NCBI GenBank assembly: GCA_002812745.2
Contig: NCSJ02000067.1
Span: forward strand, 1-64,000
Source: Scytalidium lignicola
Lineage: Eukaryota > Ascomycota > Leotiomycetes
Reading direction: 5' to 3'
DNA: 64,000 bases
Positions 7,478 to 60,915 of the stretch are shown piece after piece (positions within the stretch are counted from its first letter, which is position 1; each line of letters begins with the position of its first letter). The notes under the pieces are model-generated. The model was given only the letters and a program-made list of their open reading frames with translations, was not told where the DNA came from and ran no database searches. Made by a program: the position numbers and the translations under genes.

Positions 7478-8120
7478 TCATGAAGTGGATGCTGAACGCG
7501 TGGATGTTGCGGTGGGACGGATACATACTGCTCGCTGACCAACGTAGAAGCCCAATCCGAAAGTTTCAGTTGTGAAGGTGATTACGCTTCCTTTGGGGAC
7601 TGTTTTTTTTTATAAAAATTAGCCCACTGCCGTCCCAAGTTGCTTTCGTTTTCCTTTATTTTTTGACTTGTTCACCCAACCTCTACCAACACCAGCCTGC
7701 CATATATCTATCGACAAAATTTCCTCCAAACAAACCTTCAACTCTCTCCCAAAGAAGACTTAAAAGGAAAATAGAAGGAAGGAGGAAGAAAAACTCACAG
7801 TAGAAAACATCTCCCTTAACAGCATGCACCTTTTGTCCAGTCTCATCACTGATATCAAACTCTCCATCAACAATGATCTTCATCTCGTGGTAGGTATAGG
7901 TGTAGACCAGAGGAGTTCCCTTCTCGAGTCTGTAGAATCCGGCGCTGATTGGCTTATCGGCGTCGAGAGATGAGACGACATCACCGAGGAAGGCGTTCTC
8001 GTTGGCAATCAACGGTGGCTTGAAGGTGGTTTGAGCACTGGCGAAGTGTTTGAATGCTGGGACCGACATTTTGGAGGATGGTGAGGATTTGGACTTGGAT
8101 TTGCTGAGGATGGAGCCCAT
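7478..8120 (-). CDS. Small cupin protein, EutQ-like
   Basis: This two-exon gene encodes a 147-residue single-domain cupin. Exon 1 is 8120-7799, the intron 7798-7600 (GTGAGT to CAG, 199 nt) and exon 2 7599-7478. The join gives an uninterrupted cupin core: residues around 65-85 read SAGFYRLEKGTPLVYTYTYH, followed by a GDVFYFPKG turn assembled across the splice and a final strand ending near GFYVGQR. This matches the small EutQ-type cupins common in filamentous fungi, whose substrate is not established. The first Met gives MGSILSKSKS, which resembles an N-myristoylation signal (Gly2, Ser6); the Met at residue 18 (8069) would give the more usual family start MSVPAFKHF. The exon boundaries are well supported because the family motif continues exactly across them. 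No neighbour suggests a pathway. Confidence 0.85.
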
Positions 8121-10720
8121 GTTAGTTTTTATGAGGGTTACTTGGGGGAATCTTTTGCGAGAGGATATGATTTTGGGTATAAAAAGGTATTATGTGATAA
8201 GAAATGAGGGGGGAAGTTCAGATGTAGAAAGAGCAGAGCAAGTTCAGTTGCAAAGATAAATTCAAAAATCAAATACACAAAACATACCAGCTTTTCTTCT
8301 ACTTTTGCAGAAATATTCTTTCTCTTATCAGAAGATTAAAACCCGTTTTCTTAACTCTCTCAAGGTAAATATCACCTACCTGAAGAAGATCGACGGGGAT
8401 TTGCAAATGAAGACAATTGGTCCTTTATTTTAGAAGAAAGGAGGAAAAAAGCTCGGAAAATATCACTCTCTTCGTCCAGCAGCAGAAAAAAAGTGAGCTG
8501 GCAAAGCCTCCCCATTTATAGCATCCCAAAGCTCTGGTGGAAAAGTTACCCGCTTACTGGTCTACCCCCCCTTTTGTTTACCTACCCCACTACAGCCAGT
8601 GACGGACCCCGCGCACGGCTGAGCTTTACTGGTACCAAGAGGCAGAGGGAGGCTAAGGGAGCTTGGGATTTCGCATTGCATTTCTGCTTTTGGGTATGGA
8701 TTGGATGATGGGAGAGAGTATTTCCTCATCACAACTGGATTCTGCTTTGAGCGAAATGGAGATTGCCTTGATCTGGGAAGGCGTGCTGAGTAAGAATGCA
8801 CGAGATAGCTTTGTCAGTCCTCACGGCGTAGCTATTAATTATAGTGATATTTGATGTTTCTTTGATGGAGTAGAGATGTTGCACGAGACAACTGGCAAAC
8901 CACTATAATTATAGTTTTCTGCAGATATTTAGAATTTGCGATGTTTATTACATACAGTGCCTCATATTAAATCTGCCCCTCACTCACAATAATTAACCCT
9001 CACATTAACGCACCAGACAAATAAATCCCCATCCATCAATTCCCATAATTAACACACTGTACAGTAATCAAAATCAAAAACAAACTGCCGTACTATTTAC
9101 CTCCATAAATCCAAACATGGGATTCTCCATCAAATTATCGAGCGATAAGATACCGCGCTTATAAATTGCCTACTGTAGCTGGATAACGATCGTACAGCTA
9201 GCTGCTGACTTGTAACCGGCGGGGAAATTTTTCCTCAAAGCGGTTAACGATTTGTGTATTGCACAACACCCCCTTCTGCTACCCCTTTTAAGCTTGCTTA
9301 AGCCGTATCTGGAAGAGTCCTCTTTTGGAGGGGGGAAGGGCTTATTCGCTATTTCAGCTTCTGCGAAAAGTTGTGCTTATTTGCTTGCTAAAAGGAGAGT
9401 AGTAGATTTTGTATCGTGTCATATTATATCATATCATATCATTTTCTCGGGAAAGGGCAAGGGATGGGGGAGAGGGAAAAGGGTATAAGAAGTGAGGGCG
9501 TACGAGATCGATTTGAGTTCCTTTTTTTTTGTTTGTAGTTTTTTTNAGTTATATTTCTATGTGTTTTGGGGATGTACTGTTCTTGTGCTCTCCTGCATAT
9601 GACGGACGGCTATGTACTTCCGTACCACGCTGGACGTTGGTTGAGTATATCCCACCGTTATATTATTATCACCACAGACGAAACTTTGAAGCTTCGAATT
9701 AAGATCAGTCAATACGGCAATATTTTTCGAAGAAGTTGCTGAGTTCAATTTGAATAAAACTTGGATGCGGCCATGGAGAAACGGCGAATTTTGTGGAAGA
9801 GAAGGAAATCCTTTTTCACCTTTACAGCTCTAGGTTGACATCCGGATTATCCCTCTTATCATTCAGAGCACAGACACACATACACAACATTAAGTCACGG
9901 TGAAAAGAAAGACACAGGGGAACAAGGACACCAAGCATTCAAGACATAATCATCAATTGGGAGTACAGTAGTACATCAGGTAAGCCACCTCATAAACTTA
10001 AAAACCACAACTACACACGAGCCCAACCAATGACAACCCAACAACCAGCAAAATTAAAAACCCATCTAATAATCCAAGAGTGTTAAGTCAGTGGTGAGGA
10101 ATAAAAGCCAACTTTAGATCTTTGCTCAGACCAGATGAGGTCAAGCTGACCATCGTCAAAACATAAAACCGGACGGTACCAAATCCATCCATCCAGAAGC
10201 GAAAAGCCATCACCGACAACACAAAATCTTTCCCCTTGAACAATCCAAAATAGAAGAAGGCCCCATAAGGAAAAAAAAAAGGCTCGCAGAACCCGTTGTC
10301 CAGACCCCAGATTCCCAGTAAAATCCTATCCTTTGCCCGTTCCGGTTGCCCCCCCCTTTTCCAAAACAAAACAAAAAAGAGCAAGAACCGCAGAAGCTCG
10401 ACTAACGCCCCATCCTCGCTGGAAAATGCTTCGCTTGTGTGTAATGATCTGAAAATATCGTTATATAGGTTCATCATCGCGCTCATTTGGTACCAATTTC
10501 CTCTTGTTGCTTTCTTGGTCGTATTCGTTATTAAATTCGTTATTTCCCTTCTTGCACACAAGAGAAAGAGAGAATGTGTGTGTGTGTGCGCGCGCGTGTG
10601 TGGATGGATAGGTGAGTGATAATGAGAGAAAGCATGTGCTTCTATCCTCTTCACCATAACCACTAAAAAAANGAGATAGAAATATATAATATATAACCCT
10701 TTAATTCATAGATCGTTATT
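8121..10720. other. Intergenic region between cupin and regulator genes
   Basis: Only short overlapping frames on both strands occur here, without family signatures or sensible splice series. The 191-codon frame on the minus strand at 10,088-10,663 overlaps a GT-repeat (about 10,575-10,604) and lies where the 3' UTR of the regulator gene should be. Single N characters at 9546 and 10,672 follow homopolymers. Confidence 0.55.
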
Positions 10721-16700: not shown

Positions 16701-18452
16701 TGATACCATGGCAGTGGATAAGGAGCTGCATGCAGAAACTTGCTTGTCCATCGTTATCATCGGCGATCCACCACTGACGTTTCGTTGTGGATGATTTTCT
16801 GCTCTGGCCGTTTCCCCGCCTCCTCCCACGCAGGTCGAGTTATGTAATTGCCTCCAAACCAGGTCCTCGCGCACAACTAAAAGCGGGAATCTACCAGTCG
16901 TGCCAATCTAGCACTATCCGACAAACGCTTCCGTATCACCAGCCACACTTCTTCATATGCGCCGCAACTAAGAAGGCAGTTGAGAAGCCACAGCGCACAT
17001 ACCGGTAACTTACTGTCCTGTACGTACCAGCCACAAGCTTCAAGCTTCAATCTCCCCCTTTATTTGCCCGGATCGACGCCTCCCATTTGTTGATCTGCTG
17101 CTGCGCCCGTTTATCATTCGCCACGTTCGTCAATCTAGCAGCCGCAGTGGCGCGCGCAACTTCCCCAACTCCCCAGCCACAACATGGTTAATCTCGCTAT
17201 GCCCTCTCCGCAGAATACGAAAGCACGCCCGTGGCCCGATCTCTTGGAAGATGGAATTTGTCCTCGTATTATTGCGCACTCACCACCATGATTGGCCCTC
17301 CACACCTTGCTTCTCCCGTTTCAGCTGCATTGAAGACTCAGATCGGGGCAGCATCCGAGCTCCCAGAGCACGGAGCCCTCGAGAGCTTTCGCCTCAGGGG
17401 GGGATGGATGGAGGCAGATGGACGATCGTCTTCCAATCCTTCCTTTCTTCTCGATCGTCCTGCCGCCACCATTGCTGACGAGATGATGATGTTAATCGAA
17501 GGCCGGATCAATGGGGTTTCAGTCCAGAGGCAGGAAAACCCACATGCCATTTGCTGGGCTCTAAATACAGTTTAGACGGGGTCGTCATGGGGATCCAAAA
17601 CGGCTTAGAAGCGTCTTCTGGGCGTGAATCAGGACCGGTATCTGGAACCTGGCTCATGAGGAGCTGCCGTGGCTGACATGGGTGGAGCTTCGCTGCAGCA
17701 CTGTGACTGTAATCCACCTTAGCTAGCAAGCAGGCAAAAGAATCGCACTCAGCCTCCCCTTTATCCTGATTGTTTACTTGCTGGGTTAATTATGGCGTGA
17801 ACAAAGTTGCTCGAGCGCCGTCATCAACCGCGTTCTTTCGACCATTTTCCTTCTTTTTTTTCTCGTCGTCTTCTCCTCCATCATAAGGGAACGGGGTGAT
17901 TCTGTCGCTGGATGCAATAATTCGACCTCAATTCTAACCTTTTGCTGCGCCGTCTTCATGTCTGGCCGGTGGATCTGAAACGATTCGTCCTCGTCAATGC
18001 CAACAAATCCCCCAAGGGAAAGACAACGCTGAAACATAACGCCGCTGAGGGGTTGAATGCGAGCCTTCTGGCTACCTTCTGCTGGCCAATATATATTTTT
18101 TCCTTTTTGCTAGCCGTACATACGTTGGCAGTTGTATTTCCTGCGAGACGGCTGATTTGTGCATAGCCGCCTGTTGTGTTTGGGACCTGGTTCTCCGCGT
18201 CTGATCGTCAAGCCCAAAAAAGAAAGAGACGAACTGCTACAACACCCACCTCAACGTTCGCTGTAATTCACCACGCAAAATATCTTCGATTCTTTTTATT
18301 CCATACCGAAAACCCTCTCGGAACTGCAAGCAGGCTGGGCCGGATAATGGAATACCCAATATTTACAAACTAAATAATAATATTTCTTTTTTGGTTAGGT
18401 TGTAGTTGAAAAAACCCCCGGTCTCAGGTTTGCTCTTGTTGTCTTATGCAGA
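13726..18452. other. Long divergent intergenic region
   Basis: This 4.7-kb stretch separates the minus-strand regulator from the plus-strand 1,543-residue gene and probably holds both promoters. Frames of up to 151 codons overlap on both strands around 15,150-15,710 and 17,230-17,580, but none has a recognisable domain, repeated splice signals or a plausible start context. CAG/CAA-rich tracts occur at 13,960-14,100 and TATG/TACA-rich tracts near 14,975-15,030 and 15,965-15,990. Confidence 0.5.
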
Positions 18453-21400
18453 ATGGGGAATATCCAATCGCACACCTCTACAGCCAATTCCGCGACTACA
18501 ATCACGATCGATACCCCTCCACAACCACCGCCGGATCCTCCTCCAAAATTCGACTCGAACAAGCCTCCGAATAAGCTGTCGAAGCCGAGAACCAACAACT
18601 CGAGCTCAAACAATCTCCTGAACCTGTCTACGGTATCCGTTCCAAACCGCAACGCTATATCGCAGCAGACCCTTGAAGAGAGACCTACAATACGGAGGAG
18701 ATATAGTGTGGCTTCCATGGATACGGTACAGCTGGAGATTGAGAAGTCCGAGAAGGAGAGGAGTAGGCGAGAGCGTTCGAGAACGAGAAAAGCTTTAGGA
18801 CTGTTCCGCAGACGGAGTGTCCAAGCTCCGCCACTGGAGATCCTCGCAACGGGAGCAAATAACCATGCCGAGGTTTTGGAGGTGGAGGGCTTGGAGATGA
18901 AGTACTCGAGGCATAATTCCATGCCGAATAGAGAGCTTTCAAAGAGGTTCCTGAGACGCAATACTATGGCAGCACCAATGACGCCAGCCGTTGAATCTTC
19001 GAGACACCACTCAAGACAGAACTCTGTTGCAAACTCTATTACGGAGGAGCCAGCTATAGATCCAACGCATAGACCCTCCAGACGAGATTCCGTCACGGAG
19101 GAGATGGCTGGAGATCCTACGCGCAGGTACTCAAGACATAATTCGTTTATTCAGGATCTAAGTACTGCGAGGAGATTCTCCCGCCAGAATTCTATCTCAG
19201 AACCAGATCATACCGGGCCACACTTGGGACAAAGCTCTGTGACAGAGCCAGATCCGAGGAAGAGGTATTCCAGGCAAAGCTCATTTAGTCACGAGGGAGC
19301 GGGAGAGCAGAACTATGCTTCAGCGGTGGCACCAGCAGTACCGGAGCTAGCACAACCTCACCCTGTACGAGCATCGGCTCCATTTGTTCCCTATCTACCG
19401 ATCCAAGGACGCCTCTCCAACTTCTTTAGTTCATCTTCGCAAAAACCCCCACAGATGCAACCTGCGCCTCCTGAGCGACGGATGTCAGTTATTGCTCATC
19501 AGGGAGAGCCTCTACAATGCCTTCCAGACCGAGGACCTGGTGAAGATGAGCCAGTGCCTGTACCAATCCGACGGCGGTCTCTGCTACAACCGGGGATTGC
19601 AACGAGAGCCGGCAATTCCAACATGCCCATGCCTGAACCTACGACGCCAAGGGCCTCTCTTCTCCCTTCCTCTGAGCCTGCTAGAGAGACAGATATTGAC
19701 CGAACCAAAGCCAACGATAGCCAAGGCAAATCGATGTCTTCAACCCTGGGGACGCTCGTTTCGCTAGCGCTTGCTAAGGGCAAATTCTCGGAGAAGGTTA
19801 AAGATAAGAATAAGGCGAGGGAAAACGAGCGGTTCAGAGTTCTGGATTTAGATCTTCGTGATGAGGGAACAGCAACTCCTGATCTAGAATACCGCCATAT
19901 CGGAGGATACAAATTCGGTACGTTAAGGATCACTAATGGAACGGCCAGTCCAGCGAGTCTTTCGGAGGATGAATATTTCCCTGCTGCAGGTACAGCAGAA
20001 AAACGTGAGAAGAGGGGCAAGAATCTGCGCAGCCAGACGATGACTTTGGAGACGGGAAAGAAGCCCTGGGGAGATTCGAAACGACCTGAAAGCCCACTTC
20101 GGCAGGTAGTCTCTGAAGCGGTTGATGAAGCTCCTCCACCAAAAATGGACCTGAAAATCATCACAACCCTTGCCGCTCCCCAAACAAATAACGAGAATAA
20201 CGAGATACTTGAATTGAAAGGAAGAGCATCTCCCAATCGAGCGCAGGATCTGGCACAAGACTATATGCAGGACCTACCGATATCACCATTCTCATTCGAT
20301 ACCTCACCAAGAAGGTCACCGATGTTGAAGGTGCAAGCTACGAGTAAGCACACGGCTGCTGAGGACCACTTGTTCGATCTGGAGGAAATTGACCCAGTGT
20401 CTCAATCGTATGAGAATGGTTATCAAGCTGGTATTGCTGCGGCCTTGGCGTGGCAAGCTCAAGCTGCTAAGAATGGTACTCTTGGTCAGCAGCCTGAATT
20501 GATCAACAAACCTCTGTCGAAAGCAGACAGCGGGTACAGCTCGAACACTTCTCTTCGGTCATCCAAGAGTAATGCACAGACGCCATCGAGCAAGGAGTCA
20601 CCTCCTTCACCTCTGAGAGAGAGCATCACTAGAGATAGTGCTATAACGGCGTCAAGCATGTATTCCAGGGACACCAAAACGTCAAGCATCTATTCTAGGG
20701 ACACCATAACCTCTGACCACACGATCCGGCCGAAACGATCATTTCCATCGCGTCCAGTAGTAGAGGGAGAACTTAGACTCGAGACACTACAAGAGCTCAC
20801 TAGAATACCACCTCCAGTCCCTCTAAAGGGACTCGATGATTCCACATTCTCGTTGAAGGAGTTTGAACAAGCACATGCCCAACTTCTTCCTATGGTTCCT
20901 TCAAAGCGTTCTACTGTTCATCTAGCGCAACTGGTAAAGTCACCAACGACAATAGCTCCTGACAAGGAACAAGGCATCCAAGGGGCTGGGAAATCAGGGA
21001 AGGAAGGACGAAAAACGGCTTACAGACAGAGTCTCCCTGTTACTAAGACAATGGAGATATTTCCTGGGAAGATGTCTACGGGTTCGGAGATATCAACTAA
21101 TTCTAGTGGAAATAGTAATGGCAACAATACCTCTTCTAAGTGGCGACCGTGGAGAAAGGAACACTCGGATTCTCAGGCCGAGATAAAAACAGTCCATATG
21201 ATTCAAGCTTTTCCGGCCTCAGCTGTGGAGAAGATCGATATCCCACCCATTCCTTGTCATGTCTCGAGGAGCCAAATGAGCGGCATGGTTGGTTTTCCAG
21301 GTACAAGCTCCCCAAACGAGGTAAACATACGGAAGAGAGCGTCGAAAGAGAGATTGGGCAATTCATTTAGTGTTGAGAGTTTGGAGGAACGACACAATTC

Positions 21401-23084
21401 AATAATGAAGCTGCAGAGCGAGCTTCCTACCATTCAAGCAGGACGGACTACACCGGTACATGTGGCGGAATTGATCAACGAGAAAGGCCGCCAGACGCCT
21501 CCTCTTTCGAGGCATTCAATTGTCCCGATGGCTTCGGGTTCGGTGATGGGGAAGCATATGGTGGCACCAACGTTGGATTCTTCTAGGCGTAAATCAATGC
21601 GTGATCTTCGCGGAAATAACCAATCCACTACTGCACCTTCACCCTTACCTGATACTTCAAGATCGCGCACCAACACTCACAGACGTGCATCAAGTCAGCC
21701 AAAGAACCCTTACGACCTGTTCCTTAGCGAGCCAACTGAGCCAGCATATCGAGCCCTAGCCAAAGAGGAACGAGCTAAGACTATGACGTCGAAGCTTGAG
21801 CTTGCAGCCGCTGCTAGATCTGCGGAGTCAAGGAGGAAGAGCCAGGAGGGACATGTTCAATCACACGCACCTGTAGGACTGGCAAGAAAGAGTAACGAGG
21901 CGCGTTGGCAAGGTCAGGAGGTCCAATCGCAACCCATATCCATCCCTCCTAGTCACAAATCTAGTGATTCTAGTTCTAGCCTAAGCACCAGCCAGAGCGT
22001 TCCCTCTGCCGAATCGCCCTTAAAATTGATGCATCGCCTGGCTCCGAGGATGAAGCGAGCACCACCGCAGGTCCATAAGACGCGTAATACATACATTGGT
22101 CTCGGAATGGAAGCTCAGGCCGAGGCCGAAGCAGGATATCAGGATGCTGGCGCCAGAACAGCTTCGATGACTAGTTTGGGTAGAGTTAGGAGTCCGCCAC
22201 CTGTCAGTTTGAATCAACAGAGGAAGTTTTCGCCGGGGCAGATCAGGAGGGAGCTTGCGCCTACACCTTCTCTTCCCCCTACGCCGATGCTTGAGATGCA
22301 GCCTCAGATGGAGAGAATGGTGTCTCTCAAGGCCGTTGGAGGCTTTCGAACCCGATCGCCTCTTGCTGCACCCGTTCCACCTCGACAACAATCTACACAG
22401 CCAGTTTCCACACGAGATACTTGGGCAGGTTCTAAGAATAACTCGCGCCAGCGACGACAATCCTCTGCAGAAATAATGAGTCATCAACTCAAGTCCCGAA
22501 AATCTACGGAGTACATTTCTAGTGTACGACAACCTCAACAGCAAACACAAGCCGAATTTGAGCATGCGCATCAGTCCCAAGAAGGCAAAAGCTCACATTT
22601 CATGGAATCCAGGAATAGGTTAAAATCATATCGGAGCTTTGATACGAGCCAGACGCATGGACAGGGAAGATATTCTCACTACGGGTATGCATCTCAATCT
22701 CAATCTTACATCGACCCCTATTACCAGAGTGCCTACATGGGCGATGAATATGACCACACTTACGGCTCTGCATCTCGTCAACAACAAAGTGCTTTCCAAC
22801 ACGATGATCCAACATACTACGAAGCGGTCGATGATTCTGAATTTGTTGAACCATCAGCAGGTCAGTTTGGTGGTATCCCTTCGCCTCGGTCGACTTCTAC
22901 TTCAGATATGTTTATTCACCCTCTAGAGGTCGGGCTAGGTGATGGCAGTCTAACTATGAGAGACACTGGTTTCCAGAGTGTAGGGATAGGGAGAAGGGGT
23001 GGTGACGGTGCAGGCCGCTTTGGCGACGGGGTCGAGTTCGAAGAGCGACGCGGTTGGGGTCCAGGGGTTGCTGTTCGGGGATGA
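18453..23084 (+). CDS. Large basic Ser/Arg-rich protein, function unknown
   Basis: A single uninterrupted frame of 1,543 codons. I recognise no enzymatic or binding domain. The N-terminus MGNIQS fits an N-myristoylation signal. Residues about 155-280 carry a run of degenerate repeats built on Arg-(Tyr/Phe/His)-Ser-Arg-(His/Gln)-Asn-Ser, for example YSRHNS, HSRQNS, FSRQNS and YSRQSS; with RRRYSVAS, FRRRSV and RRRRSLL-type sites elsewhere these look like substrates of basophilic kinases and possible 14-3-3 docking sites. The rest is rich in Ser, Pro, Gln and charge, so probably disordered, with a Tyr-rich stretch near residues 1,390-1,470. A membrane-anchored phosphorylated scaffold is a reasonable inference, no more. 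The start was chosen because it gives the whole frame and the MGxxxS signal. Confidence 0.85.
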   Translation: MGNIQSHTSTANSATTITIDTPPQPPPDPPPKFDSNKPPNKLSKPRTNNSSSNNLLNLSTVSVPNRNAISQQTLEERPTIRRRYSVASMDTVQLEIEKSEKERSRRERSRTRKALGLFRRRSVQAPPLEILATGANNHAEVLEVEGLEMKYSRHNSMPNRELSKRFLRRNTMAAPMTPAVESSRHHSRQNSVANSITEEPAIDPTHRPSRRDSVTEEMAGDPTRRYSRHNSFIQDLSTARRFSRQNSISEPDHTGPHLGQSSVTEPDPRKRYSRQSSFSHEGAGEQNYASAVAPAVPELAQPHPVRASAPFVPYLPIQGRLSNFFSSSSQKPPQMQPAPPERRMSVIAHQGEPLQCLPDRGPGEDEPVPVPIRRRSLLQPGIATRAGNSNMPMPEPTTPRASLLPSSEPARETDIDRTKANDSQGKSMSSTLGTLVSLALAKGKFSEKVKDKNKARENERFRVLDLDLRDEGTATPDLEYRHIGGYKFGTLRITNGTASPASLSEDEYFPAAGTAEKREKRGKNLRSQTMTLETGKKPWGDSKRPESPLRQVVSEAVDEAPPPKMDLKIITTLAAPQTNNENNEILELKGRASPNRAQDLAQDYMQDLPISPFSFDTSPRRSPMLKVQATSKHTAAEDHLFDLEEIDPVSQSYENGYQAGIAAALAWQAQAAKNGTLGQQPELINKPLSKADSGYSSNTSLRSSKSNAQTPSSKESPPSPLRESITRDSAITASSMYSRDTKTSSIYSRDTITSDHTIRPKRSFPSRPVVEGELRLETLQELTRIPPPVPLKGLDDSTFSLKEFEQAHAQLLPMVPSKRSTVHLAQLVKSPTTIAPDKEQGIQGAGKSGKEGRKTAYRQSLPVTKTMEIFPGKMSTGSEISTNSSGNSNGNNTSSKWRPWRKEHSDSQAEIKTVHMIQAFPASAVEKIDIPPIPCHVSRSQMSGMVGFPGTSSPNEVNIRKRASKERLGNSFSVESLEERHNSIMKLQSELPTIQAGRTTPVHVAELINEKGRQTPPLSRHSIVPMASGSVMGKHMVAPTLDSSRRKSMRDLRGNNQSTTAPSPLPDTSRSRTNTHRRASSQPKNPYDLFLSEPTEPAYRALAKEERAKTMTSKLELAAAARSAESRRKSQEGHVQSHAPVGLARKSNEARWQGQEVQSQPISIPPSHKSSDSSSSLSTSQSVPSAESPLKLMHRLAPRMKRAPPQVHKTRNTYIGLGMEAQAEAEAGYQDAGARTASMTSLGRVRSPPPVSLNQQRKFSPGQIRRELAPTPSLPPTPMLEMQPQMERMVSLKAVGGFRTRSPLAAPVPPRQQSTQPVSTRDTWAGSKNNSRQRRQSSAEIMSHQLKSRKSTEYISSVRQPQQQTQAEFEHAHQSQEGKSSHFMESRNRLKSYRSFDTSQTHGQGRYSHYGYASQSQSYIDPYYQSAYMGDEYDHTYGSASRQQQSAFQHDDPTYYEAVDDSEFVEPSAGQFGGIPSPRSTSTSDMFIHPLEVGLGDGSLTMRDTGFQSVGIGRRGGDGAGRFGDGVEFEERRGWGPGVAVRG

Positions 23085-42083: not shown

Positions 42084-42883
42084 TTATTTAGATAAATGCG
42101 TAGCAATCATATCCAAGTAATAACTCGAGGGAGGTATAATATCTTTAACTCCCGCAACTTTCGCTTTGTCATCCCACAACCTTAGTGAAACCATCTGATC
42201 TCGTAGGGGATCACTTTCAAATTCCTCAAGCTCTTCATTTTGAAATGGCCCACCCTGAAAGGCTAGAGACTTTTGGGATGCAGAAGACAGGGCTTCATAA
42301 TAAGATTTGTCAACGGCGGTAAGATATCTATCTCGGATTTAAGAAGAGGTGAAGATTAGATATATGTAAAATTACTTGACTCATTTTCCCATTTCTTATT
42401 AAGAATGCTGAATACAGCATCTATATCTCACCGGGATAGAAATTTTACGTACCTCTTTGCTGCAACATGACTATTCACCAGTCGACACACCTTCTCACTG
42501 AAACCCTGCGCCCGAAGGTACTCGGCTCCAATAGTTTCATGACCAATTCGTCCAACATCTTCTGGGGTATTAGACAGACTCATTCGCACGTCACGAGTTT
42601 CATCGACGGGAATTATCTGGCCAATGTCATGGAAGAGTGCTGCAAGCACGAGCTCATCATCGGATCCTACATTAGTTAACAATTTAAAACAGATTCGTAT
42701 CTCTGTCTTATGTTAATTTATTGTCTGGTGGGATTACATACCTGCATTCCGTGCTTGGTTGGCTGCTTGTAGCGAGTGCTCGAGTTGACTTATAGACTCT
42801 CCAATATAATCACCTTGGCCGTAACTCTCAAGAAGGCCAAGAAGAACCTGGGCTTTCTCAAGAGAAGTCTGGTGGTGTGACAT
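42084..42883 (-). CDS. phnZ-like: PhnZ/TmpB-like HD-domain mixed-valent diiron oxygenase
   Basis: Three exons, 42,883-42,742, 42,666-42,453 and 42,327-42,084 (introns 75 and 125 nt), encode 199 residues, the usual PhnZ size. Residues 24-37 read GDYIGESISQLEHS, including the Tyr26/Glu29 pair that in PhnZ forms the substrate lid and His36 as the first metal ligand; LFHDIG gives His60-Asp61, GHETIGAEYL His90, NSHVAAKRY His114, and RLWDD Asp171. This ligand order (H, HD, H, H, D) is that of PhnZ and myo-inositol oxygenase. The block AAKRYLTAVDKSYYEALSSA followed by FQGGPF further matches PhnZ across the second splice. PhnZ cleaves (R)-2-amino-1-hydroxyethylphosphonate with O2 to glycine and phosphate; TmpB acts on the N-trimethyl analogue. 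The dioxygenase that would make the substrate lies 352 bp upstream on the same strand. Intact; the exact substrate is inferred. Confidence 0.9.
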
Positions 42884-43234
42884 ACTTTAAATATTATTAT
42901 ACGTCAATATTATTAGAATCTAGCAAACGGCGCATATGAATAGCTTGAAGAGAAGAGAGGTTTATTAATATTGAAAAGAACAGAGACATGTGGGGCTTTA
43001 AATAATAGTACTGTTAGTTGTTATTGGATGAGGTTCTTGGTGGGGTTGGCAAATCCTAGACCCAATTATTTATAACGAAAATTTATTGCTTTTCATTTAA
43101 TATAGATGTTTTGTCCCGGATCTATTATGTTCTAAAGCCCTCATTTTCTAAACATGATATTATCTATATTCATCTATTTTCTAATACATGAAAATGAAGC
43201 TACTTTTAGAAGTTTAGAAAATGTACGAGCTGTA
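42884..43234 (-). promoter_or_regulatory. Promoter region of the PhnZ-like gene
   Basis: 351 AT-rich bases between the stop of the dioxygenase gene and the start of the PhnZ-like gene. No CACGTG is present here, unlike in the promoter on the far side of the dioxygenase. Confidence 0.35.
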
Positions 43235-44250
43235 TTAAAATATAACCTGCTTTCGGGTATCGACACTCAGCATTGGTGACCCGAATGCATATCGTTCTCT
43301 ACCTTCTTCGTATGATTCTCCCGCCTTCCGCAAATGCGTGGGTGGCCACAACTTCCTCCTGTCATCATAATACTTGTCGTGAAGATCTCCCTCCGACGTT
43401 CGATTATAAGTTGCATAGACTGCGCGGCGATCTCTTGTGCTAGTGTTTACTCCGCTGCGGTGGGCAAGATATGTTCCGAAGATGAGAATGTCTCCTACAA
43501 ACAGGGGCGAACAATGGAGATGAGTTGGCTTGTTAACTGAATGTCAGAATGGGTTAATGAAAGACCTACCGGCGTTGAGATTGCAGGGAGTCCATTTATG
43601 AGTTTCAACCCAGGAACGCTTAATGCACCGATCACTGCCTAAGGAAATCTCCATGTGATGGCTTCCATTAACGATATCTAGTCCACCATTCTCGGGTGCC
43701 ATATCATCTACCGCAACCAAAACCGTTAAATGCTTGATATTTTTGACATGTGTGTAGGCGTTGGCATCTATATGAGGAGCGAATCCACCTGTGAGATAGC
43801 AAACAATCTGTCAATCTATCGTATGTTTTTCTGAGAACTTTAACTTACCACTACCAGCAAGCTTATAGTTGATCTTCTCCTTGAATAGAATCATTTCTTC
43901 GCCTGCTAATCTCTGCAGGACGCTGAGAATCCGCAGCCCGCGAAGGAAACCGTTGAAATCAGCATGACTCTGTGAAAAATTTTCAGTCCGACAGAGAACA
44001 CTCTTGCCTTGCGAGTTAACTTCTTATAAAATGGTCAATCGATGGGTATTAGAGGTATAGATGAAGTAAATCTTACTTCATAAGGCATATATGGTGTATC
44101 TGTTGTCCGGGGCAAGTCATGGACTTCCTGGGCCCATTGTTTCAGCTTCTGAGATTCCGTAGGAGAAAGGAAAGATGGAATCAGCAGATATCCTTCCTCG
44201 TGAAAAGATTTAATTTGATCTTCTGTTAACTCCTTATGCACCTCGTCCAT
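43235..44250 (-). CDS. phnY-like: PhnY/TmpA-like 2-oxoglutarate/Fe(II) dioxygenase (PhyH family)
   Basis: Four exons. Exon 1 is 44,250-44,077, ending LPRTTDTPYMPYE; exon 3 is 43,788-43,570 and exon 4 43,494-43,235, with clean GT-AG introns of 60 and 75 nt. Exon 2 ends at 43,849 and reads VNSQGKSVLCRTENF through LAGEEMILFKEKINYKLAGS. The iron ligands are expected in APHIDANAYTHVKN (His-x-Asp) and AHRSG in exon 4, where the following Arg is suited to bind 2-oxoglutarate. The pattern follows bacterial PhnY, which hydroxylates 2-aminoethylphosphonate at C1 to make the PhnZ substrate. The exon 1-2 junction is odd: the expected acceptor before GAAGTTAAC reads ATAA, the nearby TATAAG gives the wrong frame, and the frame is restored only by the AG at 44,004-44,003, with the loss of about seven residues (268 in total). 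It is either functional with a shortened loop or newly damaged. Confidence 0.85.
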
Positions 44251-45222
44251 TGTCGATAGTTTAATTAGTAACAGATGACGCTCTGGTCCGTTGAAAGAGG
44301 GAGTACTACAAGCTCCCTAAGATTGATGGTAATTATTGCAACTAAATTATACTAATGTGATAAGATTTCAACTACTGTAGCAAAGCAATTTGCGAAACCC
44401 TATTTTGTGTTGTTCTCTAGCTCAGAGATTAATCTAATAATTCCTTATCAGCACTTTCCCACAGGGAACCAATGCAGAAACTTGAGAGGGGCAGGTTGTC
44501 AAGGCAGTATGCGGAGTCGTGATTTTTCGTGCCATCCATGGGTCTCTTTGGATCTGCATGTATAATAGAGCTATTGAAAGGGGGGACGGCTAAAGGGATC
44601 CAATTGAAGAATGGGAAGCGCCACGTGCAATATCGGATTCTCCACCAATTTCAAGCTTCTCGGCCAGTCTGCTCTCACTTACTCGTTCTACAGTTACGCT
44701 CCATGGTAGATAATGGCGCCTCTGCTCTCTCAAATCCTTGTAATCAAACTGCACTGCCATGCAGATTTTAATAGCGCCATGTACAAGCGGCTTGTTTTCG
44801 TCGGCGTGGTGGGCCTGCTAAATAAAGTTATTCTTGCCGAGACTGAAGCTACCATAGCTTGTTTCATCAAGTGTGCGGACGTAAGTTACTGTACAGTAGG
44901 CTAGACAGTTTCTTCGGCGATTGAATATTTGACTGTCTGCTTAGAGAATGAGGAACGGATCTTCGCCATTGCACGTGCTAATGCCCATATATACGGTTGG
45001 ACTAGGCATACGTGATCATGATGCGATGAAGATTCTAGATTTTAGGGGCGATAATTAGGAAGGAGAGAGATGAACCAAAATTGCACGTGGAAACTTGTAA
45101 AATGCAGATAAATGCAGACGAGATTTCACCTAGAGAAAAGGTCGACTTTGACGTCTAAACGAGTTCCACATTGTTGAGCGACTACCTTCCTTCTGACAGC
45201 AAACGTCTCCTCCGGCCTCATC
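44251..45222. promoter_or_regulatory. Divergent promoter with three CACGTG sites
   Basis: This 972-bp spacer separates the start codons of the dioxygenase (minus) and the Git1-type permease (plus). CACGTG palindromes lie at 44,622-44,627, 44,972-44,977 and 45,084-45,089; the last two are flanked as GCACGTGC and GCACGTGG. CACGTG is the core of the bHLH phosphate-starvation activators Pho4 of yeast and NUC-1 of Neurospora. By chance about one would be expected per 4 kb at even base composition. Small open frames at 44,529-44,904 have no support. Confidence 0.6.
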
Positions 45223-47077
45223 ATGGCTTTCTCGGAGGACGATATGGTTGTCAAACAAAATATTGATGCAGTCAAGGTTGTGGCAGGCGATCTCAATACC
45301 GACTTGAAAAACAACGTGGAAGTCCATGAGCCTTCTCGAAAGTCTGGGATCCTGAATGTTTTCGTGTCCGGTTTAGCACTCTTCAGCGATGGATACAACG
45401 CACAAATAAGTACGGCATTTTGGATTTTACCCCTGATATCTAAAGCTAATGTTTATATTTTTCAGTCGGATATATGGAGCCTTTGCTCTCAGTGTTGTCT
45501 GTATTTGAATCAACTGAGTCGTAAGTGTGTTCCTTACTGACAGCTTTACAGGTACGGGAGCGCTTTGTCTTCAACAATAAAGACTAGATTATCTAATTCC
45601 TACCTTATTGGGGAGATATTTGGGATGCTATTTTTCGGCGTGCTGATTGATAGACTTGGACGAGTGGCGGGTATTGTTGCAGCTACGTTGTTCCTGGTCC
45701 TTGGTATCATCCTAGCTACTGCCTCCCACGGCACATCTGATCTTGGGTATGCACACAAATCAATGCATCTAAGCTTGAATGGTATATATGAAAGATTTAT
45801 TAAACTAACTTACTTCTAAGTCTTTTCTGGATGATGATTGTGGCGCGCGGAGTGGCTGGATTTGGTGCTGGTGGAGAATATCCCGTCTGCGCCACTAGCG
45901 CCACAGAAGCTGCTGATGAGACAGTTTTCCTTCGAAAGAGAAGAGGATTTCTTGTGGCAGTAACTACAGATTTCGCAATTGACCTAGTATGTATGACTTC
46001 GTCTATGAAAAAGTAATGGTAATAACTCGGGCAGGGTTTTGTAGCTGCTGGTATTGTAGCTCTTATTGTCCTCGCCTGTTTCCACCAAGATGTGAAGGAT
46101 GGTGTTTGGCGAGTGTGCTTTATTCTTGGTATTGTGGTAAGAGATTCTCGCCCAGAAGCTCTATTAGATTGTGAGGAGAGAATCGGGCTCATCTGTGATG
46201 ACAGCTCCCTCTAACGATTTTCTTCTTCCGAATCCGTATGATCAACTCAAGCCAGTACCAGAAGCATGCTATTAAGCAGCAGTATCCCTACTGGCTGGTG
46301 CTGAAGCGGTATTGGAGGCCAATGCTGGGCACCTGTAAGTGGAATTAACACTGTCTGCTCCTACCACCCAGAATTAACTGTTGAACTGAAAGCACTCGCA
46401 TGGTTCTGCTATGATTTTGTCACATACCCATTTGGTATCTTCTCCTCCACCATCATCGGGCAATTAAATCCCAATAATACCACTACCCAAAACATTGGAT
46501 ACGGAGTGAGCATACTAGTTGTTACATTCGAAACATCACTGACTCTATCTAGACCGTTATTAACTGCTTCTACCTTCCCGGGTGCATCATTGGAGGTCTT
46601 CTCATGGATCGCATCGGCCGTAAACAAAACATGACACTAGGTTTCATGCTATGGGGTATCTGGGGATTCATCCTCGGCGCTGCTCTTAAACCAATTCAGA
46701 CCGTATTCCCATTATTTGTGGTCATGTACGGTATTTTCAACGCTTTAGGTGAGATGGGGCCCGGTGTGTCCACATTCCTCTGCGCGGCAGAGTCATTTCC
46801 AACTCCCCTTCGAGGCCATTACCTTGGTTTTGCGGCTGCGGTTGGGAAGGCTGGTGCAGCTATTGGAACAGAGGAATTCACGCCAATACAGAATTCGTTC
46901 AGTTCTGTTGAGAAGGGTCAGCAGGGAGTCTTCCTGATAGGCTCCGCCTTTACTATTGTTGGTGGTTTGATCTCGTGGGTTTTAATACCTGATATGTCCA
47001 AGGAGTTAGAGACAGAGGATGCAAAGTTCAAGAAGTACCTAGAAGAGAACGGTTATGATATAACGCATTATTCTTAA
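45223..47077 (+). CDS. MFS permease of the glycerophosphodiester/phosphate (Git1) group
   Basis: Eight exons: 45,223-45,409, 45,466-45,500, 45,544-45,746, 45,821-45,986, 46,035-46,136, 46,205-46,334, 46,393-46,505 and 46,553-47,077, giving 486 residues. The join between exons 2 and 3 is the least certain (an alternative uses a 31-nt intron). SGLALFSDGYNAQIIGYMEP at helix 1 and RLSNSYLIGEIFGMLFFGVL at helix 2 are signatures of the Git1/PHS group; GFGAGGEYPVCATSATEAAD and LMDRIGRKQN are the usual MFS loops. Git1 of yeast takes up glycerophosphoinositol, Candida relatives take up glycerophosphocholine, and other members take up phosphate. It is divergent from the dioxygenase across a shared promoter with three CACGTG sites, so uptake of a phosphonate or phosphodiester under phosphate control is the natural reading. 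No lesion seen. Confidence 0.85.
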
Positions 47078-56770: not shown

Positions 56771-59700
56771 CTACTCTATTAAAAACAAATGTTGAAGTCC
56801 ATAAAAGTCCTCTAGCTCCGATGGCCGATGTACTACAAAGAGCTGTTCTACTCCTTCATGTTTGTTGAATGCAGCTAGTTGTAAGGCAGTCCATCCGCTT
56901 CTATTCTCTATCCCCGCTTCTACGCCCTTCTCGAGCAGTAGCTTCACAACGGCTTCATGCCCATTCTTAGCAGCATACAACAGTGGTGTCTGGCCATATA
57001 TATCTTTTGAATTAACATCTACTTTCCCTGTCTTGAGTAATAACTTCACAACAGCTTCATGCCCATTCTTAGCAGCATATAATAATGGCATTTGGCCATA
57101 TATATCTTTTGGGTTAACATCGACTTTGCTTGTTTCAAGCAATAACTTGACGATAGCTTCATTTCCTTTCCTAGCAGTATATGATAGTGGTGTTTGGCCA
57201 TATGCATCTTTTGAATTAACATTGACTTTCCCTGTCTTGAGTAATAGCTTGACGATGGCTTTATTCCCTTCCCCAGCAGCATACAATAGTGGTGTCTGGC
57301 CATATGTATCCTTTGAATTAACATCTACTTTCCCTGTCTTGAGTAATAACTTCACAATAGCTTCATGCCCATTCTTAGTAGCATATAACAGTGGTGTCTG
57401 GCCATATGTATCCTTTGAATTAACATTTACTTTCCCTGTCTTGAGTAATAGCTTCACAACAGCTTCATGCCCGTTCTTAACAGCATATAATAGTGGCATT
57501 TGGCCATATATATCCTTTGAGTTAACATTAACTTTGTCTATCTCAAGCAAAAACTTGACGACAGCTTCATGCCCTTGCCCAGAAGCATACGATAGTGGTG
57601 TCTCGCCATATGCATCCTTTGAGTCAACATCGACTTTGCCTTTCTCTAGCAATAGCTTGACAACGGCCACAGTCCCAAATAATACTGTTAAATGCAGTCC
57701 TGTCATCCAGGGAACTCGCTGACTATAATTTGAGTCTACTATGTAGATCTTGATAGCCAATAACCCTTGGCTCGATGCATTCACTTTAGCTTCGCTCTCA
57801 AGAAAGTTTATGATCGCCTGGCTTGACGCTTCACTTAAAGTCGAAGTTTTGCCAGCATGATGGCCCCAGTTTTGTGAAGCATACTCGAAAAATTGATTTG
57901 ATTGCAATCGCTTCTCGAATTCATCGTCCGTTTGACAAAATCCACTTTCAAACACATTAAATGAAAGGTAAGTAATGCAGGTTTTTGTAATATCAGCCTC
58001 TGCATCCGGGAACCAATAGCTTTGTGTTCGCTCAAAGTATTCCTGTGTTGTATAGTGGACTAAACGAATGATATTATTATCCTCGTCGATGGTGACTAAT
58101 CCGGCGCACACAGAGACCATGTCTTCGATTTCTGGGAGATTGTCTTCGTCAAGTTCCAGGTGATTTTCTTCCACGGCAATAGCATGTTGAAGTTCTATTG
58201 TTTTAAGTGGCCTATTTGCACAAGTAATCCATGACAATACTTTCTTTGCAAGAAGTTGAAAGCCTTCTTGTTGACCATTGATTTTCTCCATCGTTTGTTC
58301 ATATGCTAAAGATAATATTTCAAGTTTCTTATCTTCGTTCGATTTCTGGATTTGTTTTTGAAATTGTTTTAATGCACTTCTTATAGCTTTCACTGTTGTT
58401 TTGTCTTCAAGTGAACTAAGATAAAGTTGTGCTAAGAGAAACCTAAGATTGTTTAGTAAAGATGTTTCATTTATAAAATAAACAGGATAGCTTACATTCC
58501 TTCAACGCAATTAGCAATTTCCGCTTTGATTTCTTCTTGTAGTTTTGGTTTCTTTAAGACACATAATGGAAGCTGTAACATATGACTGTCCAGATATCTT
58601 TTTACATCTTCATCACTAGCAAGGATTTCACGTGAAAGGCATTATTTGAACTCTTTATTTATCTATGTCCAAGATTGGTCGTGAAGTTGCGAAGAAATTT
58701 GCATTAGTCATATCTTGCAAATTAAAAATATTCGATATCAACCTTGATCGGCATCCATTGGATATTTGACATTCATCTAGTGCATCAACGATAATGAAGA
58801 CTCTCGAGCAAGTGTTAGCTACTGCTTGAAGCGATTTCAAGATTTCATCAAGCGAAGGCCGCGTCCGTGTAATCTTGTACCGATCATAAAGATCTTTTAC
58901 GCTGCTTGGTATAGAAGGTAAGCACATAGCTAGTTGTTTTAGTAAGCTTGCCAGCAAGTCATTGATCTTTTGCTCGTCTTTCCGTCGGAAGTTACAGTAG
59001 ATGTACGCAATACCAATTGTTGAATCTTCGAAAAACCGTGAATTAAGCTCTTCTATTACAATGGATGTAAGGATTGTTTTCCCTGCCCCTGGAATTCCTG
59101 GACAAAATAATGTCTCTTTATTAGTGTTCAACCACGTCTGGAATTCTGTCGAGTCCAAAAGCCACTGGCCGGTTCCTGCCTGTCGCCGATTGATGAAATC
59201 GCTCTGTTGAGTAGCGTAATCAATAGGTGTCAGCCAATCGAGAATAGTCTGGAAATCTCGATTGTTTTGCCATCGAATCGATTGATCCACGTCTCTTTTA
59301 ATGGCTGAGGATATCTTTGTATCTTCTTGGCGCCATTCCTGCTGTTCTCTTCTTACATCTTTGATCTCCTTGAAAGTAGTTACTCCAATTACCGCAGTAT
59401 CGATCGAGAGCATGTTGTTCAAGGTTTGACACTGCCGGCAAAGGTTTTCAACTGAATCTCGAGTGTCCTTTGCTAGGAACGCTCCCTTCAACCGCTCCCA
59501 TCCTAGCCGATGATCTTGTCCTCTCTTCTTCAGCTCTTTCAACAGAGAATCCAACCCTCTCTGGCATACCTGTAGCATGGATTTCGCATCTGTTGTTGGA
59601 GGGGCATGAGATCCTAGTTGCTTTAGCAGCAACGAATGTTGGCCTTGAAAGACTTCGGCAAAATCCGGATTGAAGATGATGTTGGTATTTGTTTCTGATA

Positions 59701-59857
59701 GTACGGTCTTCAGAGTCCCTAGCTCAGCCATGAATGTTTTAACATTTTCTGGCGCATCCTTCCAATCCAGGCCAAACTGAACTACTTCTTTAGTGATCTG
59801 TATAACCAGACTAATGATACCGGCAATACCGGTTGTGGTTCCAAATGGGTCACCCAT
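56771..59857 (-). pseudogene. NACHT-ankyrin NOD-like receptor, lesioned between NTPase and repeats
   Basis: The N-terminal part (59,857-58,655, 400 codons) begins MGDPFGTTTGIAGIISLVIQ, a fungal STAND N-terminal domain of Helo-like type (assignment uncertain), then carries a NACHT NTPase with Walker A GIPGAGKT at residues 254-261 and Walker B VFIIVDALDEC near 353-363, and ATSRP. The protein should continue as INKEFK-x-CLSREILASDEDVKRYLDSH, but this lies in another frame and has a TAA at 58,644-58,642, so a frameshift near 58,655-58,665 and a stop break the gene. Downstream a 53-nt intron (58,495-58,443) is still spliceable and leads to a winged-helix-like region and eight near-identical 34-residue ankyrin repeats ending at 56,771. 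Such receptors act in non-self recognition and cell death. If an unseen splice bypasses the lesion it could still work. Confidence 0.75.
56940..57670 (-). repeat. Eight near-identical ankyrin repeat units, 102 bp each
   Basis: Units of 34 residues follow the pattern TPLLYA-x3-G-HEA-V-VKLLL-x-TGK-V-NVNSKD-x-YGQ. Variation is concentrated at a few positions (K/G/R at 8-9, H/N at 11, V/I at 15, D/N at 25, A/T/I at 31). The DNA repeats share long exact blocks, implying recent duplication or gene conversion. The antisense strand stays open for 286 codons only because of this periodicity. Confidence 0.85.
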
Positions 59858-60915
59858 AGTACATTAGAAGCAGTTCGAATGGAATTGATGGATCCTTTGG
59901 TAAGCTAGCTCCCACCGTCTGAACTCGCTAGATCGGATCGATTAGATTGATAGATTCCTGAAAGATCTGGCCAGCAAACACAACTGTGTTGCTGAAGTCG
60001 CCTGTATCGAAGCCAAGGAGTATCGAGAGGTTACGGATATTTCTATGGTAATATAGAGAGAGAAGATCAAAGGATGGAAGGATGACGGTATTGTTTGGAT
60101 CTCAGCCTGGCGAGGCTGTGTTTGACCCCACTCGGCAGATTGCTGGGCGTTGCACCCTTCTTACAGACCACGTCGCACTCGCATGGCGGCTCAGAGGATT
60201 ACCGTATGACCATGGTCTATGCGTGCAAGGCATGGAGGAAAATGTTAAGAGGTTACAACAGCCGATCCAATTGGTTCATACACAGCTGAATTGTATTTAT
60301 TCCAGCCCATATTCAACCTCGAAACAACTAATACCGTAGACAACTACAACTACAGTAGGCAAATACAACCGTAATATAGACGTTTGTAACATATCGCCAC
60401 AACTATATCAGAAGGTTTGTTGCCTACTAATTGGCCTGTTCCCAACCGTAAGCAAATAGGCAACTATAGGCTTCAGCTATATTTGTGCCTTATACTTAGG
60501 CCACAACAATTCGAGGAGGGACTGGCTATTGCTAAATAGATTAGTATGCGACTCAGAAAACTCTGCTGATTAAGCTGAGATGCAATATTTGAAGTTTAAT
60601 CCTTCCATTCTATGAGTTAGGGTCGTGATAAGCATTGCCACAATCAATTGAGGGGTCCTGGATGGTTGTTCACCTTGCGAATTGACGTCATTTGCATCGC
60701 GAAAACCTGTCCAACAGCCCTACCAATATCATCATTCTCGACGGTGATCACCCTTTTCACGTTACGTTCACTTTGTTCTATAAGTAGGTGGCTTCCTACA
60801 TCTAGTCTGAAATATAATATTCATTTCGTATCATAATCTGTTTATATATATTTCGAGAAAGCTCATAAGTACATCGCCAAGCCTCATCTGATATACCACT
60901 AGAGAAGTTACCAAA
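59858..60915. other. Upstream region of the receptor gene and spacer
   Basis: Contains the presumed promoter of the minus-strand NACHT gene and the plus-strand leader of the next gene. Short frames at 60,082-60,340 and 60,648-60,836 show no domain. Confidence 0.45.

Follow-up and report, generated by a model that had tools for sequence, protein, structure and literature searches.

A putative phosphonate-scavenging gene trio in Scytalidium lignicola and its linked relatives in other fungi

A 64,000-nt stretch of the genome of Scytalidium lignicola, an ascomycete of wood and leaf litter (the window, by which we mean this whole stretch) carries, at positions 42084-47077, neighbouring genes for an HD-domain oxygenase, a PhyH-type dioxygenase and a divergently transcribed Git1-type permease, and raises the question of whether these three genes together serve the use of phosphonates as nutrients. 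The window is part of a 159,888-bp contig (C628) in a genome of 46.85 Mb and 664 contigs. We consider it probable (about 0.82) that the three genes make up a fungal module of phosphonate nutrition by import, α-hydroxylation and oxidative cleavage of the carbon-phosphorus (C-P) bond, the likeliest substrate being 2-aminoethylphosphonate (2-AEP) or a close aminophosphonate. The Git1-type permease would import the phosphonate, and the PhyH dioxygenase, given its kinship with PhnY, would hydroxylate the α carbon with Fe(II), 2-oxoglutarate and O2. The HD di-iron oxygenase, with its PhnZ kinship and complete active site, would then use O2 to cleave the C-P bond of the hydroxyphosphonate to phosphate and a carboxylate, which would be glycine in the case of 2-AEP.

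The two predicted enzymes

The HD-domain gene lies on the minus strand at 42084..42883 (exons 42742-42883, 42453-42666 and 42084-42327) and encodes 199 residues; both introns are GT-AG, and no defect was found in its reading. The original prediction of an intact gene with the PhnZ ligand set was borne out: of 14 PhnZ positions compared, drawn from metal-ligand, phosphonate-binding and lid residues, the window protein matches 13, and at the last it has S in place of T. The identical positions include H36, H60, D61, H90, H114 and D171, which correspond to metal ligands of PhnZ, as well as the Y and E of the YIGE lid. The lid motif had also been predicted and both of its residues are present, but Y24 and E27 are common to all 15 HD proteins compared, TmpB included, and hence the motif does not distinguish PhnZ from TmpB.

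In a search of NCBIfam, the HD protein gave 176.8 bits (E 2.8e-52) on the model TIGR03276 ("phosphonate degradation HD-domain oxygenase"), and among PDB entries it scored 136.8 bits (E 7.2e-39) against PhnZ and 93.4 bits against TmpB; a profile of 30 fungal HD relatives gave 199 and 138 bits, respectively. A fold search was performed with the model of a Xylogone relative (P0001; mean predicted local distance difference test [pLDDT] 92.2), which stood in for the window protein. The closest structure was PhnZ (E 3.6e-13, 41% identity), followed by TmpB (E 1.1e-11, 30%), and the third-ranked structure had an E value of 0.027.

A tree of HD proteins was built from 105 rows, comprising the window protein, 30 fungal relatives, three fused fungal models, the second HD protein of this genome, PhnZ, TmpB and proteins from 68 of 70 bacterial loci; L074 and L103 were dropped, one being cut by a contig end and the other short and low-scoring. 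The fungal rows and the second HD protein of the genome formed one group (support 97/92). A 61-row set (100/99) contained the fungal HD proteins and PhnZ along with every PhyH-linked and every phosphonoacetate hydrolase (PhnA)-linked bacterial HD protein (five of each), and TmpB fell with Sphingomonas-type HD proteins on the opposite side of the midpoint-rooted tree, in which several branches, including those of PhnZ and TmpB, are long. Phylogeny had been set beforehand as a check, and its outcome supports grouping the window protein with PhnZ among the HD oxygenases. Two other assignments were rejected. A TmpB-type identity was set aside given the lower PDB score and the position of TmpB outside the PhnZ-side clade. 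As for a bacterial donor of the fungal genes, the fungal proteins form one group beside the bacterial ones and are nested in none, and so no donor is named. HD relatives among the matches listed were also found in Sistotremastrum, Clathrus and Mortierella.

The PhyH gene (43235..44250, minus strand; exons 44077-44250, 43849-about 44020, 43570-43788 and 43235-43494) is co-oriented with the HD gene, and a 351-bp spacer (42884..43234) separates its stop codon from the HD start codon. Its product matched Pfam PF05721 (PhyH) with 90.8 bits, and its best named model was NCBIfam NF052437 (methylphosphonate hydroxylase PhnY) with 172.7 bits, compared with 36 bits for ectoine hydroxylase. When read across an irregular intron 1, which is weighed below, the protein keeps 60 of the 61 columns that are invariant in 34 fungal relatives. 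Among the columns kept are those of H121, D123, H200 and R211, which in this family are the HxD...H iron ligands and the 2-oxoglutarate arginine. A profile of these 34 relatives scored 204-246 bits on the PhyH proteins encoded beside, or fused to, HD proteins in five of the 70 bacterial loci, versus 21.1 bits or less on eight other PhyH loci of the same genome; the latter were unspliced open reading frames, some of them split by introns, and whole proteins would score higher. The genome search returned 28 PhyH matches, that of the window included. Pairwise identity between the window protein and the bacterial HD-linked proteins was 29-36%. These data support a close relationship of the PhyH protein to dioxygenases whose genes adjoin PhnZ-like ones, and the earlier recognition of a PhyH dioxygenase near PhnY was borne out.

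In the public annotation, the two genes appear as one 448-aa protein, B7463_g4508, whose model bridges the spacer. It differs from the spliced proteins of the window only in lacking 8 residues at the bridge and 17 PhyH residues at intron 1, a conserved piece included. This fusion probably arose when AUGUSTUS merged two genes, and reading PhyH and HD separately would correct it.

Linkage across fungi and the permease

The permease gene (45223..47077, plus strand) has eight exons and seven GT-AG introns, shows no reading defect and encodes 490 residues; its assignment is supported by a Sugar_tr match, named relatives and alignment with a Xylogone relative (86% identity). Intron 2 measures only 31 nt and adjoins an eight-residue gap in the Xylogone alignment, and therefore this junction is the least sure in the model. 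The public protein B7463_g4509 corresponds to the window permease minus 34 residues. The best Pfam match was Sugar_tr (130.3 bits), the PDB relatives are phosphate transporters, and, in the best 120 matches listed, relatives are source-named GIT1, glycerophosphoinositol permease or phosphate transporter. By these source names, the protein is classed as a Git1-type member of the major facilitator superfamily (MFS). Its start codon at 45223 and that of the PhyH gene at 44250 face away from each other across 972 bp (44251..45222), so that the divergent Git1-group permease described earlier was confirmed.

Conservation of the arrangement was assessed through serial locus tags from the best 120 rows of each search, with non-serial tags excluded and tag intervals standing for distance. 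Serial tags were available for 45 genome prefixes for the HD protein, 40 for the PhyH protein and 65 for the permease, genomes with a single member being uninformative. Comparison of two or more members was possible in 33 fungal genomes, the window's own included, and in 32 of these the members lay within three tags of each other. The original prediction had named linkage in relatives as a check, and this result, together with a bacterial MFS-PhyH-HD analogue described below, speaks for it. For the pairwise sets, each of which includes the window's genome, the HD-PhyH distance was 0 (three fused models) or 1 in all 12 genomes; PhyH and permease tags were adjacent in 11 of 12, the exception being Aspergillus tanneri with tags five apart; and HD and permease tags were at most three apart in 15 of 15. 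All three tags were comparable in three genomes, namely those of the window, Aspergillus felis and Penicillium canariense. Linked genera include Aspergillus, Penicillium, Talaromyces, Paecilomyces, Trichoderma, Sporothrix and Recurvomyces. Furthermore, all three matches fell on a contig of equal size in A. pseudoustus (48,157 bp), P. canariense (116,235 bp), A. felis (243,578 bp) and Phialocephala subalpina (249,308 bp). A PhyH relative (P0210) and a permease relative (P0334) with the adjacent tags FH972_024868 and FH972_024869 are filed under the tree Carpinus fangiana, and this pair is probably a fungal contamination of the plant assembly.

Bacterial loci offer a parallel. By the tests used, five of the 70 bacterial HD loci had a PhyH gene adjoining or fused, five had PhnA adjoining and 60 had neither. 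PhyH and HD occupy one frame or overlapping frames in L054 and L077, and each of the three unfused pairs (L043, L053 and L055, from two Legionella records and a Thiotrichales bacterium) is immediately preceded by a co-oriented MFS gene; in L043 this gene is truncated at the end of the contig and was recognised only because it resembles the window permease. The same three functions stand side by side as in the fungal trio. The three bacterial HD proteins form one clade (100/98), and so this arrangement may reflect a single event. The bacterial MFS proteins are only ~24% identical to the fungal permease, whereas two further Git1-type paralogues in the S. lignicola genome are ~53% identical to it over their best segments; there were therefore probably two or more recruitments of a permease, separate in the two lines, which argues that import of the substrate is part of the job of the module. 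In a Pseudomonas locus (L035:2820-4013), the HD gene stands beside a flavin adenine dinucleotide (FAD)-dependent oxidoreductase (TIGR03364, 437.4 bits, cut-off 285.1) in place of PhyH.

Competing readings and known systems

Several results weigh against a module for aminophosphonate nutrition. The HD protein falls under the curated cut-off of TIGR03276 (176.8 vs 214.6 bits) and is therefore filed as PhnZ-like and not as an equivalog, and the PhyH protein, with 172.7 bits, does not reach the 500-bit cut-off of NF052437. The top named PhnY model is one for methylphosphonate and not for aminoethylphosphonate, no aminoethylphosphonate PhnY model being among the matches. A fold search with a PhyH relative (P0123, pLDDT 92.5) returned generic PhyH-fold proteins and no phosphonate enzyme among the best 50 rows; a profile search of solved structures with the 34 fungal PhyH proteins likewise gave no phosphonate-named enzyme in 20 matches, and TmpA was not among them. 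Within the scanned stretch, none of the 22 in-frame GT/GC-AG choices for PhyH intron 1 retains the conserved EVNxxGK segment. Among the matches listed, Pseudogymnoascus carries homologues of trio members, and Geomyces pannorum is akin to this genus. For G. pannorum, use of 2-AEP was reported to occur whatever the phosphate status and to involve transaminase and phosphonatase activity (PMC3905195).

The irregular intron bears on whether the PhyH gene has decayed in this strain, leaving a module that is dead here and working in relatives, an explanation that we take seriously while judging it unlikely. The read that matches the relatives gives an intron of 56 nt with a regular donor and without a terminal AG, its junction is one codon short compared with Xylogone, and the EVNxxGK segment contains E59 and G64, both invariant in the 34 fungal relatives. 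Either a sequencing indel or real damage would account for this. Against decay, the HD and permease genes are free of defects and only one of the invariant PhyH columns is lost. The Ion Torrent platform is prone to indel errors. Because the published assembly of S. lignicola DSM 105466 (47.7 Mb, 826 contigs, AUGUSTUS gene models) was built from Ion Torrent reads only (PMC6256649), a sequencing indel at intron 1 is plausible. The original prediction held that this fungus can import and cleave a phosphonate; its core is retained in our reading, but "can" was too bold for this copy of the PhyH gene, given intron 1.

In a second explanation, the permease has no part in the module and transports glycerophosphodiesters or phosphate, as the source names of its family members would suggest. 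We think this unlikely, since the permease gene is closely linked with both enzyme genes across fungi, the two other Git1-type paralogues could fill such a role, and in the bacterial loci the two enzymes are likewise accompanied by an MFS protein, though of a different line. From the position of its gene, we infer that the permease takes phosphonate as its cargo.

It is also conceivable, albeit with rather low probability, that the trio applies the same chemistry to another phosphonate, either methylphosphonate, with formate and phosphate as products as for GmPhnY/GmPhnZ of Gimesia, or the trimethyl form handled by TmpA/TmpB. In addition to the Gimesia hydroxylase model being the best NCBIfam match of the PhyH protein, the HD protein scored 139.2 bits on the model of its partner, GmPhnZ. 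However, these scores lie far under the equivalog cut-offs, all of which were missed, and no aminoethylphosphonate PhnY model was among the matches to compete. For the trimethyl form, the HD protein shares the two-enzyme setting, the lid Y and E and the ligands with TmpB, but its scores against TIGR03276 and PhnZ exceed that against TmpB, and the fungal HD proteins lie away from TmpB in the tree, with lower identity to it; this comparison with the Leisingera system covers TmpB only. The closest fungal precedent is PhoF of Fonsecaea multimorphosa, described in a review as a PhnY-PhnZ fusion acting on 2-aminoethyl- and 3-aminopropylphosphonate (PMC10574752), and this use of aminophosphonates also speaks against another substrate. 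The earlier guess at a phosphonocholine- or glycerophosphonate-like substrate found no support, considering both the position of the HD protein off the TmpB side and the PhoF substrates given in the review.

A module for aminophosphonate nutrition would be one more version of a known chemistry, of which PhnY*/PhnZ, GmPhnY/GmPhnZ and TmpA/TmpB are described in the same review (PMC10574752). With PhnY*/PhnZ of HF130, the trio shares the PhnZ active-site residues of the HD protein, the PhnZ fold in a relative and a PhyH partner next door; it differs in having introns and a Git1-type permease, and its Xylogone relative is ~41% identical to PhnZ in the fold alignment. PhoF, likened here by description and not by sequence, is fungal, has the same two catalytic domains and cleaves the C-P bond oxidatively, whereas in the trio the PhyH and HD genes, 351 bp apart, each have a start and a stop codon of their own, and a permease gene is linked to them. 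The oxidative phosphonate pathway in fungi is therefore already known through PhoF. No description of a stand-alone fungal trio was found among the titles and abstract openings listed in the literature searches, but the original PhoF paper may describe it. The present analysis adds a widely conserved form in which the two enzymes are unfused and linked to a putative importer, together with a second cluster presented below.

A role in phosphonate biosynthesis or tailoring, as with EpoA of Penicillium decumbens in fosfomycin formation, is very improbable: several PhyH relatives are source-named "Epoxidase subunit A", a likeness to EpoA by name only, but the HD partner has a complete PhnZ-type active site, an exon-by-exon search of the genome gave no match above cut-off for phosphoenolpyruvate (PEP) mutase (or for PhnW and PhnX; all matches were far below), and it would fit equally if a catabolic hydroxylase performed the Penicillium EpoA reaction as a sideline. 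EpoA is reported to be needed for the conversion in fosfomycin formation.

Promoter sites, a second cluster and neighbouring genes

The divergent promoter region contains three CACGTG sites, at 44622, 44972 and 45084. CACGTG is the site of Pho4/NUC-1, and other regulators bind it too. Nine sites occur in the window compared with 7.78 expected, the other six being spread over the remaining 63,028 bp, from which 0.09 would be expected in the promoter (Poisson P 1.2e-4; Markov simulation 5e-5); with 14 sites in 83,908 bp of other genome loci as background, P was 6.3e-4. The motif was examined post hoc, after the sequence had been read. Upstream of PHO84-like genes, the best match (C543) had no site in 1500 bp, the second (C255) had none and the third (C189) had three; the PHO89-like gene had one, and one of five acid-phosphatase-type loci had one. 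A CACGTG-binding regulator of the phosphate regulon may make expression of the trio respond to phosphate starvation, but, as the best PHO84-like gene lacks the site, we leave this control as a suggestion.

One other PhnZ-like gene was shown in the genome, on contig C366 (L033, corresponding to C366:186500-196499). It lies at 8753-9520 of this locus on the minus strand, and is accompanied on the same strand by a gene for a phosphonoacetate hydrolase (7479-8777; 544 bits vs a curated cut-off of 407.55), a phosphate-symporter-like MFS gene (4749-6363 region) and a gene for a PhoD-like phosphatase (2771-4090). The PhyH matches listed include none from the final 10 kb of contig C366. In five Bacteroidota loci (L044, L046, L048, L049 and L098), PhnA directly precedes a PhnZ-like HD gene without a PhyH match, and the HD proteins form one clade (100/99). 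Fungal growth on phosphonoacetate was already reported for Geomyces pannorum P15 (PMC4133637), and no description of the fungal HD-phosphonoacetate hydrolase arrangement was found among the entries listed in the literature searches.

We tentatively propose, at somewhat less than even odds, that filamentous fungi at large possess a dedicated and co-inherited phosphonate-scavenging cassette in which the hydroxylase is EpoA, long without an explanation, and the permease was recruited independently of its bacterial counterpart, plus a second fungal cluster of a PhyH-less PhnZ-like oxygenase and a phosphonoacetate hydrolase. The cassette in Aspergillus, Penicillium, Trichoderma and others would give the use of aminophosphonates by fungi a genetic footing open to direct test, its permease is a candidate eukaryotic phosphonate importer, and it may be the natural setting of the Penicillium enzyme used in fosfomycin making.

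Elsewhere in the window, adjoining frames on the minus strand at 56774-59863 carry NPHP3_N/NACHT and winged-helix domains with ankyrin repeats, an arrangement like that of NOD-like receptors (NLRs). A 1561-aa open frame on the plus strand at 18399-23081 had no Pfam-A match at E 0.001.

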